A stretch of DNA of 64,000 nt from Geopsychrobacter electrodiphilus DSM 16401 (GTDB lineage: Bacteria > Desulfobacterota > Desulfuromonadia > Desulfuromonadales > Geopsychrobacteraceae). Under the pieces are notes generated by a model. That model saw only the letters and a list, made by a program, of their open reading frames with translations. It had not been told where the DNA came from and ran no database searches. Positions 878 through 7,482 of the stretch are shown here, in pieces. Location of the stretch: NCBI RefSeq assembly GCF_000384395.1, contig NZ_ARWE01000001.1, positions 248,001-312,000 of the forward strand, read 5' to 3'. Position 1 is the stretch's first letter, and each line of letters starts with the position of its first letter. The position numbers were made by a program, and so were the translations under genes.

Positions 878-909
878 ATTTTTGTTTGCAATAAGACGCT
901 GAGGTAGCC

Positions 910-995
910 GTAGACTTCTCGCCATAGGGTGGGATCGGATTCGGACAGGGGGTGAAGGTCGTCGAGGGATCGGTAGTGGTTCATTGAGGGGGTCC
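910..995. repeat. Direct repeat, left copy, flanking the nuclease gene
   Basis: This 86-base stretch aligns without long gaps to 3683-3768, sharing exact runs such as 'tcggacaggg' and 'tgaaggtcgtcgaggg'. I judge the two copies roughly 80 percent identical by eye. The copies are in the same orientation and lie on either side of the minus-strand gene at 1073-3490. Confidence 0.7.
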
Positions 996-1007
996 TCTCT
1001 TGGGGGA

Positions 1008-1046
1008 GAAAAAGAAAGGCCCAACCAAATGTGATCTGGTCGGGCC
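1008..1046 (-). terminator. Rho-independent terminator of the nuclease gene
   Basis: On the minus strand, arms at 1037-1046 and 1018-1027 form a 10-pair stem with one mismatch (GGCCCGACCA against TGGTTGGGCC). It is followed by TTTCTTTTTC. It lies 27 bases beyond the stop of the 1073-3490 gene and closes that transcript. Confidence 0.7.
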
Positions 1047-1072: not shown

Positions 1073-3490
1073 TTAAGGTTTCTTGCGGGTCAGGCGCTTC
1101 TTATTTTTCTCATCTAACCATGTATGATAAGAAGGCATTTTGAGGTAGAGTTGCTGGGTCAGATCGGCCAAGACTCTCAGGTTTTCTAGCCTTATGTAGG
1201 CTGGTCGAACAATGTCGGCGTGTCTACCACCGACTTCTTCCCATGCATTTTGGAGCGAATAACCTGCAAACAACTCTGTGCCAGTCAGCATGATTACTGG
1301 TGCCCGCGTTTGTTGTCTTTCTTTTATGTACTCGCGACCCCACTCAGCAAATTTTGCAATACGTTTAATTTCGTCAGTGGACAAGTCGGCCGCTTGTTTC
1401 ATCGTTGAAAAAACAACTACAGATCCTGGAAAGCGGCAAGCAAGGGTCTTCATCCTATCGATGTCTTCGGCTTTGAACACCTCTTTCCCAAAACTTTTCG
1501 CTTCGCCAAAAACGACTTCAGTAGGGAAATTATTTCCAAAAAACTGCTGTCTTTGATACCAGAGTATGAAATCGGACTCTATCTCAATTTTTGGTTCAAG
1601 TTCGAGTGTTTGTCCAGCAGACCAAGTTGTATTTGCTTCGTGAAATTGACCAATTACTTCCGAAAAAAATCTAATTGACAAAGAGGCAGCGTAACCCCCT
1701 TTGGCATAATCTGGTAATGCAAAAGGTCCAACTAGCCGATATGCCCACCGAGTATTTATACTGCTCGGATCAATATTAGGAAAATTAAACTGTTGTAAAC
1801 AACGACTACAGTCAATTTTTTGGTCTAAATTTTTTAATGAATACCAACTCCAGTTTGAGCACTTCGTACACTTAACTTCCAACCCTAGTTCTACTGCGCC
1901 CCTTTCGACGAGACCTTTAAAGTTTCTTTCATGCCTATCATTGGCTTTCGTTGCATTGTTGATTCTGTTTCTGAACTCCTGATGGTGGGCACTCCGCGAT
2001 ACAGGCCTGCGGGAAATTTCATTTAGCCATCGGACAATCTCTGCATTAGCAAAATTTGCAACACCCCAAAAGCCGCCTAATGTTTGAATTATCTGTTGGG
2101 TTGCTTTTCCAGCATCGGATAGTTGGCATTTAATTCCGATTTTCTCAAGCCAATTGCTGATAGCTGTTGAGCCACAAGGGAGTTCCCATCTTTTAGATAA
2201 ATCTTTATATTTAGGAAACGTCACTAACCCTTCTGTCGTAGGTAAAAGGTGGTTTCCTCCAAGACCGAAATTTGGATAAACGGGGTTTTTAAAATTACAG
2301 GGAAACGTGGTGGCAATTTGATTTTTGTAGCTATGATCATTCAGGGTGACTACATTCGCATAACAATTGCTATTCCCATATTTTTCAGAAAAATCTGGTG
2401 CCAAGACGTCAAAGTGTATCTCAGGTTTATCATCAATAAATGCAGAATCGAAAGACTTCTCATCGGCGGACAATGTTGGTCGCATTTCACGGTGGGTAAA
2501 ATTTGGCGATGATCTCCAAATGGAGGGATACCAGTCTTGACGGCAATTCGCTCCATCGACATCAACTCGTAAATGTTTTTTGTGTAGATCTTCAATGTCT
2601 GTAGTTGGGATTGACCTCGAAAACATAACCGTCGGACGAATCATCACTCCATTAGGGTTCCCAGGTAGTGGTCGATAGTTTTCTAGAATATAATCCCTGC
2701 AAAAATCGGAAAGAGCTTCGATCCATTGAACCGGAATAGGTAAAACATTACGTGTTACTGCCCGAAGATTCCAGAAGTCGATTAAGTCCCTTGGTTCATG
2801 CGTATCTAGAATAAACAGGGCTGGATCACGATGATCATGATAATGAACCTCTATCTCTGATCTCCCAATGCGTAGTGCTGAGGTGAAGCTAGATTTGTAG
2901 AGTTCGGCAAGGGCCCTACTGCCAAGTGTTTGAACTTTGGGAGTAAATACATCAGTAAAACCCTTATGCAAATACTTTAAATCTTGTTCTTCTGGGAAAG
3001 CCCCGAACATACAGGCGCAGAACTCTTTCAGTTTTCTTGACTCAGGTGTAATGTCGACGATGTTATGTTCATGTCTATGGGCAAATTGAAACTCCTTGCG
3101 ATAGAGGTCCCTATATAGATCAAATACACTCTGACCGAAGCCCTGCCTGTCGCGATCACCATCTAGAGTCAAAATGTCTTCTATTTGCAATACTCTGCCT
3201 CTTTCAAAGCCAAGAGAATTTGCTAAGCCCTTTTCAGCTTCAACAAGAAAGTCCGGTTCGAAAAAGTCTAGATATCCATTAATTATCTGTGTAGCATTTT
3301 CAAAGTGGTTATTGTGTCGATCCCACCATTTAGGTAATTGTTTGAAGAAAGGAATAATCGGATTGAATTGCCCACCCCACAGGCAAGTGTTTGTCTGGAA
3401 AATTTTGAGGAGTCGTTTTCGATCATTAGGGCGTACGAGAAATGCAAACCTTGCAGGCCGTAGCCTGACTTGAGCATTGATAGACGTCAT
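1073..3490 (-). CDS. Uncharacterised zinc-ribbon protein with PD-(D/E)XK-like nuclease signature
   Basis: An 805-residue soluble protein that I cannot assign to a named family. The start chosen is ATG 3490 (MTSINAQV), because GGGAGG lies 5-6 bases upstream; another ATG four codons earlier has no ribosome site. Visible features, in order: an N-terminal TCLWGGQFNPIIP block (about residues 36-47); a four-cysteine zinc ribbon, KCTKC then about 20 residues to CSRC (from about 540); and near the C-terminus ESDFILW (about 637) followed by a hydrophobic strand VVFGEAKS (about 660). The last two fit the acidic and E-x-K elements of PD-(D/E)XK nucleases. The gene stands alone, has its own terminator, is A+T-rich relative to the core genes and lies between direct repeats near a tRNA. 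I infer a nucleic-acid-targeting protein, plausibly a single-gene defence factor; catalysis and target are unproven. Confidence 0.6.
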   Translation of the reverse strand: MTSINAQVRLRPARFAFLVRPNDRKRLLKIFQTNTCLWGGQFNPIIPFFKQLPKWWDRHNNHFENATQIINGYLDFFEPDFLVEAEKGLANSLGFERGRVLQIEDILTLDGDRDRQGFGQSVFDLYRDLYRKEFQFAHRHEHNIVDITPESRKLKEFCACMFGAFPEEQDLKYLHKGFTDVFTPKVQTLGSRALAELYKSSFTSALRIGRSEIEVHYHDHRDPALFILDTHEPRDLIDFWNLRAVTRNVLPIPVQWIEALSDFCRDYILENYRPLPGNPNGVMIRPTVMFSRSIPTTDIEDLHKKHLRVDVDGANCRQDWYPSIWRSSPNFTHREMRPTLSADEKSFDSAFIDDKPEIHFDVLAPDFSEKYGNSNCYANVVTLNDHSYKNQIATTFPCNFKNPVYPNFGLGGNHLLPTTEGLVTFPKYKDLSKRWELPCGSTAISNWLEKIGIKCQLSDAGKATQQIIQTLGGFWGVANFANAEIVRWLNEISRRPVSRSAHHQEFRNRINNATKANDRHERNFKGLVERGAVELGLEVKCTKCSNWSWYSLKNLDQKIDCSRCLQQFNFPNIDPSSINTRWAYRLVGPFALPDYAKGGYAASLSIRFFSEVIGQFHEANTTWSAGQTLELEPKIEIESDFILWYQRQQFFGNNFPTEVVFGEAKSFGKEVFKAEDIDRMKTLACRFPGSVVVFSTMKQAADLSTDEIKRIAKFAEWGREYIKERQQTRAPVIMLTGTELFAGYSLQNAWEEVGGRHADIVRPAYIRLENLRVLADLTQQLYLKMPSYHTWLDEKNKKRLTRKKP

Positions 3491-3556
3491 GTTCCCTCCC
3501 ATTGCAATTCAGGAAGCCTACCTGAAGTTAAGCAATGTCTCCAACTATTTATAACG

Positions 3557-3590: not shown

Positions 3591-3608
3591 TGACGTCCCG
3601 GAGAGAGA

Positions 3609-3643
3609 CCCTCCCCAAAACCCCGGACCGGACCACCCAGGGT
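3609..3643. repeat. Exact 35-base direct repeat, left copy, flanking ravA-viaA
   Basis: These 35 bases, beginning ccctccccaaaacccc and ending acccagggt, recur exactly and in the same orientation at 7241-7275. The two copies bracket the ravA-viaA pair. Confidence 0.85.
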
Positions 3644-3682
3644 TGCACCTCCCGCCTCCCCATCTCAGATGGACATGAACCC

Positions 3683-3768
3683 GTACACTCCTCGCCACAG
3701 GTCGGGATCGGTTTCGGACAGGGGATGAAGGTCGTCGAGGGTTCTGTAGTGGTGCATAGCGGGGCCCT
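3683..3768. repeat. Direct repeat, right copy, flanking the nuclease gene
   Basis: Partner of the repeat at 910-995. It sits beside the left copy of the ravA-flanking repeat, so about 250 bases here form a junction between the two cassettes. Confidence 0.7.
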
Positions 3769-4060: not shown

Positions 4061-4099
4061 ATGAATATGACCAGCAGGGAAGGACTTAATCCTTTATGA
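4061..4099 (+). CDS. Twelve-codon leader ORF overlapping the ravA start
   Basis: ATG 4061 (or 4067) follows a strong AAGGAG at 4053-4058. The frame encodes MNMTSREGLNPL and stops at TGA 4097-4099, which overlaps the ravA ATG at 4096 as ATGA. The ravA start has only an AAGGA placed about 10 bases upstream, so ribosomes finishing this leader probably help start ravA. The peptide itself has no recognisable function, and translation is inferred from the ribosome site alone. Confidence 0.4.
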   Translation: MNMTSREGLNPL

Positions 4100-5703
4100 G
4101 TACTGCAACTACTGAAATAAAAATTAAACAGAAGTCATCTTTTGACAATGAACTGAATCTTAACCAGCAAAGTGATATTCGCGAGCGGTTGAAGCAATTG
4201 CTCTCACAAATTGGTGCAGGGTTGCATGAGCGAGAGCAAATACTTGCTATTGCATTATTGGGCACTATATGTGGACAAAACACTTTCTTGTTTGGGCCTC
4301 CAGGAACAGCAAAAAGTTTGATTTCACGTCGTTTGGCTCGTGCCTTTAAAAGTCCTGTTTATTTCGAATACTTGATGAATAGATTTAGTACGCCCGAGGA
4401 AGTGTTCGGTCCTGTATCAATTAAGGCACTTAAAGAAGATAAATATCTAAGGCAAGTTGAGGGTTATTTGCCGACGGCTAACTTTGCATTCTTGGATGAA
4501 ATTTGGAAATCCAGTCCGGCGATATTAAACACGCTCCTGACATTAATTAACGAACACGTCTTTAAGAATGGCAATGATATTATTGATGTGCCGCTGAAAG
4601 CACTTATCGCGGCATCGAACGAAACTCCTGCCGAAAACCAGGGGTTAGATGCTCTTTACGACAGATTTATCCTCCGTTTGTTGGTGCCACCAATTAAGAA
4701 TGAAGATCGCTTCAATGCATTGCTCAATTCCAAACCATCATTGTCCAAACTGCATGTTGATGTAAATTTAACCATTGATTACCAAGAACTGTCAACATGG
4801 CAGCAACAACTACATAACGTTGCGATCAGTGACGACTCATTACTGATTATTAAATTTATTCGAACAACACTGGCAGAACGTTTTGATGAACTTGGCGTTT
4901 ATGTTTCAGATCGTCGTTGGCAGCGGGCTGCCATGCTTTTGAAAGCATCTGCATTTTGCAACGGTAGAACTGAGACAAACCATAGTGATGCTATTTTACT
5001 TAAGCATTGTCTGTGGACGTCTCAGATACATCTACAAGAAGTTTCTGATATTGTCATGCAAGCGGTAGAAGAGTGTGGGTTTGTCACCGACGCTAACCTT
5101 TCTGAGCTAGACAAAAAGAAAGAATCGCTAGATAAGGAGATTAATAGAGAGCTATTTTTTAATGAAGATGTGTACGATACTGTAAAATTAGGCTGTAATA
5201 AAAAATACTTTAAAGAAACATTTACTTTTAAATCTAAAAGTTATGCTCGTGACACTGAAAGATTTGAGATATTTATGCAGTATTCAGAGTTTAAAGCTAA
5301 AAAGGAATTCACGCCTGTTGATGTTAATGGGAATGAAAACGAAGAGATAATTTGCAAATTTGATGAACAAGGCTCTTGTATAGTTTCTTATGTAAATAAT
5401 TATAATAAATATGAAAATATAATTTTCACTCCTAAAGTTATGTTCCATAAGGGAGATAAAAAAGAAGAGATAAATACGCGTTTAGTCAAATCTCTTGCTG
5501 GATCTGTAATTAAACTGCGAGGCGAATTAAAAAAAACATTGTATTTGACTGAAAAAAAACTTCAAGGCTATAAAATTCACCTTGAAAGCTTGTTTGCAGT
5601 TGAACGAGAAACTGACGTTGCCGTAAAGGGTATTCAATCGCAAATCGGCCAGTTGAAATTACGAATCAAAGATTGTGAGCGTCTGGAAGCGCTATGCAGG
5701 TAA
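4096..5703 (+). CDS. ravA: MoxR-family AAA+ ATPase RavA
   Basis: A 535-residue hexameric-type AAA+ ATPase of the MoxR/RavA group. Walker A is GPPGTAKS (about 67-74), Walker B is FAFLDEIWK (about 130-138) and sensor 1 lies in AASNETP (about 172-178). The blocks EYLMNRFSTPEEVFGP and PAILNTLLTLINE and the later YVSDRRW motif agree with Escherichia coli RavA as I remember it. The C-terminal 200 residues are lysine/glutamate-rich and helical, as expected for the RavA arm and LARA region, but poorly conserved. It overlaps the VWA gene viaA by 10 bases, the usual pairing. In E. coli the pair modulates respiratory complexes and aminoglycoside sensitivity; here the role is unknown. The A+T-rich composition and flanking direct repeats suggest acquisition by transfer. 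Confidence 0.85.
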   Translation: MSTATTEIKIKQKSSFDNELNLNQQSDIRERLKQLLSQIGAGLHEREQILAIALLGTICGQNTFLFGPPGTAKSLISRRLARAFKSPVYFEYLMNRFSTPEEVFGPVSIKALKEDKYLRQVEGYLPTANFAFLDEIWKSSPAILNTLLTLINEHVFKNGNDIIDVPLKALIAASNETPAENQGLDALYDRFILRLLVPPIKNEDRFNALLNSKPSLSKLHVDVNLTIDYQELSTWQQQLHNVAISDDSLLIIKFIRTTLAERFDELGVYVSDRRWQRAAMLLKASAFCNGRTETNHSDAILLKHCLWTSQIHLQEVSDIVMQAVEECGFVTDANLSELDKKKESLDKEINRELFFNEDVYDTVKLGCNKKYFKETFTFKSKSYARDTERFEIFMQYSEFKAKKEFTPVDVNGNENEEIICKFDEQGSCIVSYVNNYNKYENIIFTPKVMFHKGDKKEEINTRLVKSLAGSVIKLRGELKKTLYLTEKKLQGYKIHLESLFAVERETDVAVKGIQSQIGQLKLRIKDCERLEALCR

Positions 5704-7172
5704 GATCGGTAAATAACGCTTCGGCGTTAATTCAAGCTGAAGTACAAACAGGGCACGAAGAACTTTTTTCACAGGTTGATGGGTTGAGTACAGAATTTGG
5801 GAAACTGCTTTCCGATTGGCAGAAAACTAGTGGAAAGTGGCTTCACAGCGAGAACCCATTCGTAGGACACACTGAGAAACTTGAGGGTTGGCATCAACAA
5901 TTTGCGCTAGGAACCCTGAGTGATTCAAGCTTTCTAATCGGCGACTTTCAACGTTTTAGTCGATTTGCCAAAGTGCCTTTTGATTTGGATTTCTGGAATC
6001 GGCAACTCATGGTTGAAGGTGAGTCAGAAAACCCTTTGTCGCATGATATAGGCATAACACAGGAGTTGCTTTTAAGCGATTGGCAAAAAAAACTCGATGA
6101 GGCTCAGGCTGCTTGGCAGGTAGAAAAGTTGCAGCTGTTGCGTGAGCAGTTTTTGATGCAAATCAATGAGTGGCTGAGCTTACTTGCGGAGCTAAAGGAG
6201 GACTTGGAGTCCCTTGGTTTGGAGCCAGGTATTTGGCTCGATTTGAGCAAGGGTGAGTTGAGCTTGCAGCAGATTGACCAGCTTAAACGCTGGGCTAAGT
6301 ATCTTGCCGAAGATGAGGGGGCTCGCGCAATTTGTGAATTGTTGGGTAAGGTGAGGCAAGCCGCAAAATTAGAGCGCGTTGAATGGGTTAAGCAGGCAAT
6401 TTCTGTTGACACACCATACGTAGATGTTTCTTCAAAAGAGGAAATCGTTGGGATAAAACTAGGAAGGGAGATTGAACATACCTTGCCTTCGGAACTGGCT
6501 CTATTGTCAGATTCCGATACTTCCATTTTGTTTGATCTGAAATTTTTGGAATCCAGATTACTCTGTTTCGAGATGCAAGGCATTTCATATATACAAGAGC
6601 AACAAGAAATGGAAGTCGAGCAGGCACAGGCTGATGATGAGAAGCTGGGGCCAATGATCTTATGTGTTGACACCAGTGGTTCAATGTGTGGAGAACCTGA
6701 ACATATTGCAAAAGCAATGGCACTATTTCTGTCAACACAAGCCAGAGCACAAGATCGGAAGTGTTACTTAATTAACTTCTCAACAAATATAGAAACCTAC
6801 GAACTGACAGGCAGAGAAGGGCTTTCTAGGCTGATTAATTTTTTAGGCAGCTCCTTTTATGGAGGTACAGATGTTGGCCTGGCGCTTCGGCATGCGCTTG
6901 AAATAATGAAGCAAGAAGCCTATGCAAAAGCTGATATACTCGTGCTCTCCGATTTTATTATGGGGTCTTTGCCGACAGGAATTTTAAATGCCATCAGCAA
7001 GCAAAGAGAAAATGGGAATACGTTCAATTCATTGGTGATTGGTGATTGTTTTATGACTGAGCGATCACGTACTTATTTTGATCATGAGTGGGTATTCAAC
7101 CCAAAAAAAAGCATAATCCAAGAATTAACTCAGTTTGAAATGTGCATACGTGAACCGAAGGCTAGATTTTAG
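5694..7172 (+). CDS. viaA: VWA-domain partner of RavA (ViaA)
   Basis: A 492-residue soluble protein with a helical N-terminal two-thirds and a C-terminal von Willebrand factor A domain. The metal-ion site is CVDTSGSMCG (about 324-333), with the matching threonine in FYGGTDVG and an aspartate in LVLSDFI. The order and spacing of these motifs and the CYLINFST segment fit ViaA. Its ATG lies inside the last codons of ravA, so the two are translationally coupled. VWA partners of MoxR ATPases act as adaptors that the ATPase remodels; the client is not visible here. No terminator follows, and the 35-base repeat comes 68 bases later. Confidence 0.82.
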   Translation: MQVRSVNNASALIQAEVQTGHEELFSQVDGLSTEFGKLLSDWQKTSGKWLHSENPFVGHTEKLEGWHQQFALGTLSDSSFLIGDFQRFSRFAKVPFDLDFWNRQLMVEGESENPLSHDIGITQELLLSDWQKKLDEAQAAWQVEKLQLLREQFLMQINEWLSLLAELKEDLESLGLEPGIWLDLSKGELSLQQIDQLKRWAKYLAEDEGARAICELLGKVRQAAKLERVEWVKQAISVDTPYVDVSSKEEIVGIKLGREIEHTLPSELALLSDSDTSILFDLKFLESRLLCFEMQGISYIQEQQEMEVEQAQADDEKLGPMILCVDTSGSMCGEPEHIAKAMALFLSTQARAQDRKCYLINFSTNIETYELTGREGLSRLINFLGSSFYGGTDVGLALRHALEIMKQEAYAKADILVLSDFIMGSLPTGILNAISKQRENGNTFNSLVIGDCFMTERSRTYFDHEWVFNPKKSIIQELTQFEMCIREPKARF

Positions 7173-7240
7173 TTTTGCTTCATCATAGGTCCTATCTGGC
7201 GCAGTAATTATGCCTTCCAACATGCCGCCCCGGACACGGT

Positions 7241-7275
7241 CCCTCCCCAAAACCCCGGACCGGACCACCCAGGGT
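7241..7275. repeat. Exact 35-base direct repeat, right copy
   Basis: Identical to 3609-3643 in the same orientation. It lies between viaA and the terminator of tRNA-Pro. Confidence 0.85.
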
Positions 7276-7304
7276 GAAACTTCCCGATCCACTCATTACG
7301 TAAA

Positions 7305-7403: not shown

Positions 7404-7482
<79 letters not shown>

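Follow-up and report, generated by a model that had tools for sequence, protein, structure and literature searches.

The window analysed here, a 64,000-nucleotide stretch of the Geopsychrobacter electrodiphilus DSM 16401 genome (assembly GCF_000384395.1, contig NZ_ARWE01000001.1, positions 248,001 to 312,000), carries on its minus strand an intact open reading frame (ORF) of 805 codons (1073–3490) whose product is a member of a widespread but unnamed bacterial protein family. Its members combine a sensor-like N-terminal half with a C-terminal half predicted to cut DNA, and their genes are often found next to classical restriction systems; the protein is thus probably an anti-phage nuclease. 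The initial annotation had called this frame without stating its strand. Its first ATG, at 3502, would yield 809 residues; we prefer the start at 3490, and thus 805 residues, because most homologue matches start at residues 1 to 5 of the shorter protein. As had likewise been noted there, the gene is rich in A+T (42% GC versus 53.8% across the window), ends at a terminator of its own (free energy −21.9 kcal/mol, z −5.1) and is placed between direct repeats. The features are, in window coordinates:

1073–3490, minus strand: 805-residue protein of the unnamed family, stop codon included (ORF call and homologues)
1018–1046, minus strand (read 1046 to 1018): intrinsic terminator of the gene, 13-pair stem and T-rich tail
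2516–3490, minus strand: N-terminal two-lobed α/β (Rossmann-like) domain, residues 1–325, proposed sensor (model pLDDT 90.9)
3350–3379, minus strand: WGGQFNPIIP block, residues 38–47
2762–2788, minus strand: DLIDFWNLR block, residues 235–243
2177–2515, minus strand: β-rich middle part, residues 326–438 (secondary structure of the model)
1901–2173, minus strand: helical part ahead of the nuclease, residues 440–530 (in the model, aligns with the part of Card1/Can2 that follows CARF)
1799–1870, minus strand: zinc ribbon, C541-x2-C544 ... C561-x2-C564 (weak zinc-ribbon matches)
1136–1753, minus strand: PD-(D/E)XK-type nuclease part, residues 580–785 (model and fold matches)
1571–1579, minus strand: E638-S-D640, proposed metal-binding pair
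1496–1504, minus strand: E663-A664-K665, proposed catalytic E-x-K
908–991, plus strand: direct repeat copy 1, 84 nt, downstream of the gene
3681–3764, plus strand: direct repeat copy 2, 84 nt, upstream of the gene, 86% identical to copy 1

The family was aligned in 60 rows, namely the window protein and proteins from 59 loci out of 71, with a mean column identity of 32%. The twelve loci left out are three that resemble another locus (L016, 80% identical to L009; L019, 99.7% to L018; L050, 76% to L049), seven with incomplete or disrupted frames (L010, L024, L026, L030, L032, L064, L067) and a remote protein with its 98% identical copy (L073, L074). Sixteen positions are invariant in all rows (P12, W38, G40, G163, D235, W240, N241, C541, C544, C561, C564, G598, E638, D640, E663 and K665) and take in the zinc ribbon, the nuclease signature and the two N-terminal blocks; for the four cysteines and for E638, D640, E663 and K665 such invariance is far beyond chance. 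The C-x2-C ribbon was correctly recognised in the initial annotation, and the D...E-x-K signature proposed there takes the fuller form of E638-x-D640 followed by E663-x-K665, SDFILW being residues 639–644 directly after E638. The third motif singled out, WGGQFNPIIP, is a true family block in which, besides the invariant W38 and G40, P44 is kept in 59 rows, G39 and P47 in 58, I45 in 54, N43 in 53 and I46 in 52, the variable positions being F42 (22/60) and Q41 (4/60). When compared with the alignment afterwards, L016, L019 and L050 keep all 16 residues, and both pieces of L010 and of L067, as well as L024, L026 and L064, keep every one within their span. In L030 and L032, which are cut short and diverge from the family beyond their N-terminal part, the invariant residues covered there are retained. 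Remote Bacteroidetes proteins of 809 residues, encoded at L073:225-2651 and L074:1080-3506, differ from the family at D235. L073 matches the family profile with 99.4% probability over window residues 520–714 and has kept the W-N pair and all four cysteines along with the WGGxxNPI block, E-x-D and E-x-K. As both remote proteins retain the WGG-NPI block, the ribbon and E-x-D/E-x-K, the family extends beyond the 60 members aligned.

The structure model places a PD-(D/E)XK-type α/β core, with the acidic pair and the E-x-K, on the C-terminal side, which agrees with the nuclease fold that had been surmised from the signature. The best fold matches of this part are CARF nucleases of the Card1/Can2 kind, while the restriction endonucleases MspJI, FokI and BspD6I form a second tier with lower scores. 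Model and matches support assigning the C-terminal half to the PD-(D/E)XK nuclease superfamily, and the protein would be expected to cleave nucleic acid in a metal-dependent manner. Residues 1–325, searched alone, gave no convincing fold match among the families listed.

The nuclease part shares its fold with Card1/Can2, which are grouped with Cdn1 and VC1899 as DUF1887 (PF09002) nucleases acting in type III CRISPR systems, but neither HMM nor profile-profile comparison detects sequence similarity to Card1/Can2. No match to PF09002 at E≤0.05 was obtained among the 60 members, and hhalign against 13 PF09002 proteins returned no real alignment (1 column) at default settings and 1.4% probability at permissive ones, the latter without a matched control (one reversed and five column-shuffled controls at default settings gave 0.1–0.4%). 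Membership in Card1/Can2 was consequently rejected on sequence, and the likeness is retained solely in the sense of 'works like'. The architectures differ as well, since (i) a zinc ribbon intervenes in the family protein, and (ii) its N-terminal part comprises ∼440 residues, whereas the CARF domain of Can2 spans residues 3–151 according to the relevant passage of PMC7969007. The fold of the nuclease part could still be taken to indicate a true cyclic-oligonucleotide effector triggered by cA4 or a CBASS signal; in view of the unmatched PF09002 and of a search for cyclases that, in the window's own genome, revealed no SMODS match and no Cas10 palm domain that reached the cut-off (a single match, of 23.1 bits, fell short of it), we consider this very improbable. 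Beside the loci, none of the 25 most frequent families in either neighbour scan was recognisable as a type III CRISPR gene.

With respect to the libraries searched the family is new, in line with the earlier remark that no named family shows this order of motifs; proteins that combine a sensor with a PD-(D/E)XK nuclease are as such already known. The window protein yielded only weak matches, and no name, in Pfam, NCBIfam, PADLOC-DB and PHROGs, and PDB sequence searches with it returned nothing useful; the 60 members yielded scattered weak matches in Pfam, PADLOC-DB and NCBIfam, zinc ribbons being the commonest. At E≤0.01, five families of PADLOC-DB 2.0.0 were matched by one member each (best 5e-4). 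The Csm4 match among these (E=0.0057, residues 661–741) was rejected as coming from 1/60 members and falling within the nuclease core, and the single-member matches to PDC-M33C (5e-4), Cas10, PDC-S64 and BrxD, as well as the NCBIfam matches other than zinc ribbons (LapB, BrxD, DRAG), were set aside in the same manner. Searches of an open-licence library brought up no paper that describes the family in its title or the opening of its abstract; the family may nevertheless have been published elsewhere.

The term 'orphan' used in the initial annotation does not suit the protein, which, though unnamed, has relatives at 70 loci of a species-representative genome collection (including L073 and L074, where the match spans just 39 residues), on a Photobacterium plasmid (43% identity) and on one viral contig. 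The collection was scanned with two short peptide patterns, so that the 70 loci are a sample and not a census; no relative was found in phage records, in the first viral-contig scan or in E. coli genomes queried with the DNA of a Citrobacter copy. The distribution is patchy: the family occurs in 2 of 297 genomes of the phylum sample, the window's own included, and among 60 close relatives in the window's own genome only; the eight other genomes of the genus lack it (three of them are less than 90% complete). Hence, horizontal movement of the gene is the natural reading. On a tree of the 'quick' kind, for which starred support is less trustworthy with long branches, the window's closest rows belong without exception to Pseudomonadota (Rhizobium, Paraburkholderia, Gallionellaceae, Nitrosomonas and an unclassified gammaproteobacterium), and the sole other copy in the phylum sample (G131) is 31% identical to the window protein and lies far off.

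Homologues occur in mobile or variable contexts, rather than in conserved core contexts alone, and are recurrently linked to type I restriction-modification (RM). When the ORFs of 72 loci were clustered together with those of the window's initial 16 kb, the commonest neighbour clusters were HsdS (11 loci), HsdM (10) and HsdR (10), followed by a short-chain-dehydrogenase-like cluster (by eye; 7 loci), and Pfam upheld the Hsd labels for the proteins sampled (two of each kind). A type I RM gene is present in the fetched flank of 13 of 68 loci (L005–L072), absent from that of the other 55, and lies within 150 nt of the family gene at 7 of the 68. The gene order is hsdR-hsdS-gene in L045, with a stop/start overlap of one base, and in L053. 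L023 has the order gene-hsdS-hsdR, as do L021 and L060 with further ORFs ahead of hsdR; in these three, hsdS starts 8–16 nt past the last sense codon of the family gene. The RM genes of L009 and L025 lie on the opposite strand. If 59 genomes from the window's phylum (193 Mb, 59 HsdM_N matches) serve as background, 0.32 hsdM genes are expected in 1.05 Mb of flanks versus 10 loci seen (P<1e-6 even at a threefold rate), a comparison in which the background is HMM-based and from one phylum, the loci are BLAST-clustered and from many phyla, and related Poribacteria account for three of the ten. When mapped on the tree (11 labelled rows; L016 lies outside the tree, and L029, with hsdM alone, was taken as unlabelled), the RM label needs 9 changes, at least 8 of them forced by starred branches, against an average of 10.2 for shuffled labels; since 89 of 500 shuffles do as well as the real labels, the label does not cluster clearly on the tree. 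The earlier description as a single-gene factor suits the window copy, with the qualification given by the 7 loci at which an RM gene is so close.

Such operon-like placement, most evident from the hsdS overlap in L045 and the short spacings in L021, L023 and L060, would be expected of an accessory subunit that modulates HsdR/HsdS in type I RM complexes, an explanation rendered quite improbable by the 55 loci devoid of Hsd genes in the fetched flank, the solitary window copy and the differing order relative to hsdS and hsdR. A closer, though still unlikely, rival is a modification-dependent (type IV-like) enzyme, the N-terminal and helical parts of which would read modified phage DNA for the nuclease to cut, complementing adjacent type I systems. 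MspJI is modification-dependent, and its place, with FokI and BspD6I, among the second-tier fold matches speaks for this explanation, as does the window copy, beside which no methyltransferase gene was seen. These three enzymes differ from the family in their recognition parts. There is also precedent: as passages of PMC11411939 describe, TgvAB is a GmrSD-like type IV system inside a V. cholerae type I RM operon, RloF sits between hsdR and hsdS, and type IV nucleases occur both within type I RM operons and alone. The family shares with TgvAB and RloF this occurrence as a separate nuclease gene within type I RM clusters and alone elsewhere. Yet TgvAB carries DUF262 and DUF1524 (same passages), whereas the 60 members match neither of these nor any other named DNA-reader domain in Pfam at E≤0.05, and the N-terminal part resembles a two-lobed α/β fold.

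Beyond the Hsd genes, which occur at a minority of loci, no conserved partner gene was seen. A scan of 140 of the 146 nearest proteins, from 360 ORFs within the size and distance limits, gave among the 25 most frequent of 170 Pfam families phage integrase (3), N6_N4 methylase (2), AAA_15 (2), AAA_21 (2) and McrBC (1), along with ordinary metabolic genes; no such neighbour was seen for the window copy, and the HsdM match of its own genome lies ∼440 kb from the nuclease gene. Phage-integrase and recombinase neighbours, the plasmid copy and the isolated placement of many copies among the matches listed are what one would expect if the protein served repair, recombination or the maintenance of elements on mobile DNA rather than defence; given the repeated linkage to restriction systems, we regard this as improbable. 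Two further observations were made at type I RM loci. In two loci of Poribacteria (L023:6837-8704, L060:6833-9972) hsdM is separated from the nuclease gene by ATPase-like genes (one or two, judged by eye) with a small ORF after them, which may constitute a further embedded module. In Geobacter (L052:12382-13455) the family gene is immediately followed by one whose product has a NucS_C endonuclease domain (E=4.8e-6).

As to the immediate surroundings in the window, the RavA-ViaA pair said to adjoin the gene is found at 4096–7172, but the tRNA described as lying beside it is not adjacent: the nearest one found, tRNA-Pro (7406–7482), is 3.9 kb away beyond RavA-ViaA. Nor did the suspected toxin-antitoxin-like pair at 228–877 receive any match that would make it one, the small ORFs at 228–497 and 542–877 remaining without a family in Pfam, NCBIfam, PADLOC-DB or PHROGs. 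Three consecutive small plus-strand ORFs without a convincing family match occupy −219 to 877 (L076:15781-16877), one of which, of 89 residues, bears a faint likeness to DUF4258 (E=0.17). RavA-ViaA has 37–43% GC, finds no DNA match in the eight other genomes of the genus and is bracketed by a second direct repeat (3591–3654 and 7223–7286, 84% identical, the sole two matches in the genome); it looks like a second acquired module adjoining the nuclease gene. The 84-nt repeat that flanks the nuclease gene is a short dispersed one with three copies in the 4.24-Mb genome, the third of which (G000:C1:665016-665075) covers 61/84 bases and lies between ordinary-looking genes where no element was recognised. 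Read on the minus strand, the window copies give HYR(S/T)LDDLHPLSE(S/T)DP-LWR-VYG, and the repeat may represent the end of a coding element that has since been lost. Comparison by blastn with four same-genus contigs carrying the flanking acyl-CoA synthetase gene showed no clean empty site, these contigs sharing that gene and no further DNA with the locus.

The contexts of its relatives support by association the proposal of the initial annotation that the protein is a candidate defence factor. A Card1-type nuclease located behind an α/β half with invariant blocks of its own suggests a gated nuclease, and a sensor-gated defence nuclease is, in our assessment, the best explanation of the family, with a probability of roughly one half. 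The module of residues ∼440–785 (helical part, zinc ribbon and PD-(D/E)XK core) would cut DNA, possibly RNA, by means of a metal ion held in the E638-x-D640/E663-x-K665 core in the manner of Card1/Can2. In the N-terminal domain (residues 1–325) the W-G-G-x-x-N-P-I and D-x-x-D-x-W-N-L-R blocks may line one cleft, where recognition of an infection cue would release the nuclease. A messenger produced by a partner gene is an improbable cue, no conserved gene of that kind having been seen; given also that neither a Cas10 palm over the cut-off nor a SMODS cyclase was detected in the window's genome, a phage-derived cue or an altered host metabolite is more likely than a dedicated messenger. Such gating is modestly favoured over the reading of modified DNA, since the N-terminal part looks ligand-binding and no member matches a named modification reader. 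It is tempting to speculate further, though we offer this as a tentative and rather doubtful extension, that the family constitutes a new class of immune sensor-nucleases in which a Card1-type module is controlled by a novel two-lobed α/β sensor. The sensor would respond directly to a metabolite made by the phage or in the course of infection, with no need for a dedicated messenger synthase, and these proteins would back up type I restriction as a second layer.

If the proposal of a sensor-gated defence nuclease is true, a phylum-spanning nuclease family left unannotated by Pfam, NCBIfam and PADLOC-DB (60 members) and by PHROGs (window protein) would be added to the prokaryotic immune repertoire, and a nuclease module like that of Card1/Can2 would be in use outside CRISPR signalling, combined with a different sensor. 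The nesting of family members in type I RM loci then raises the testable question of which cue the extra nuclease reads once restriction has been bypassed.
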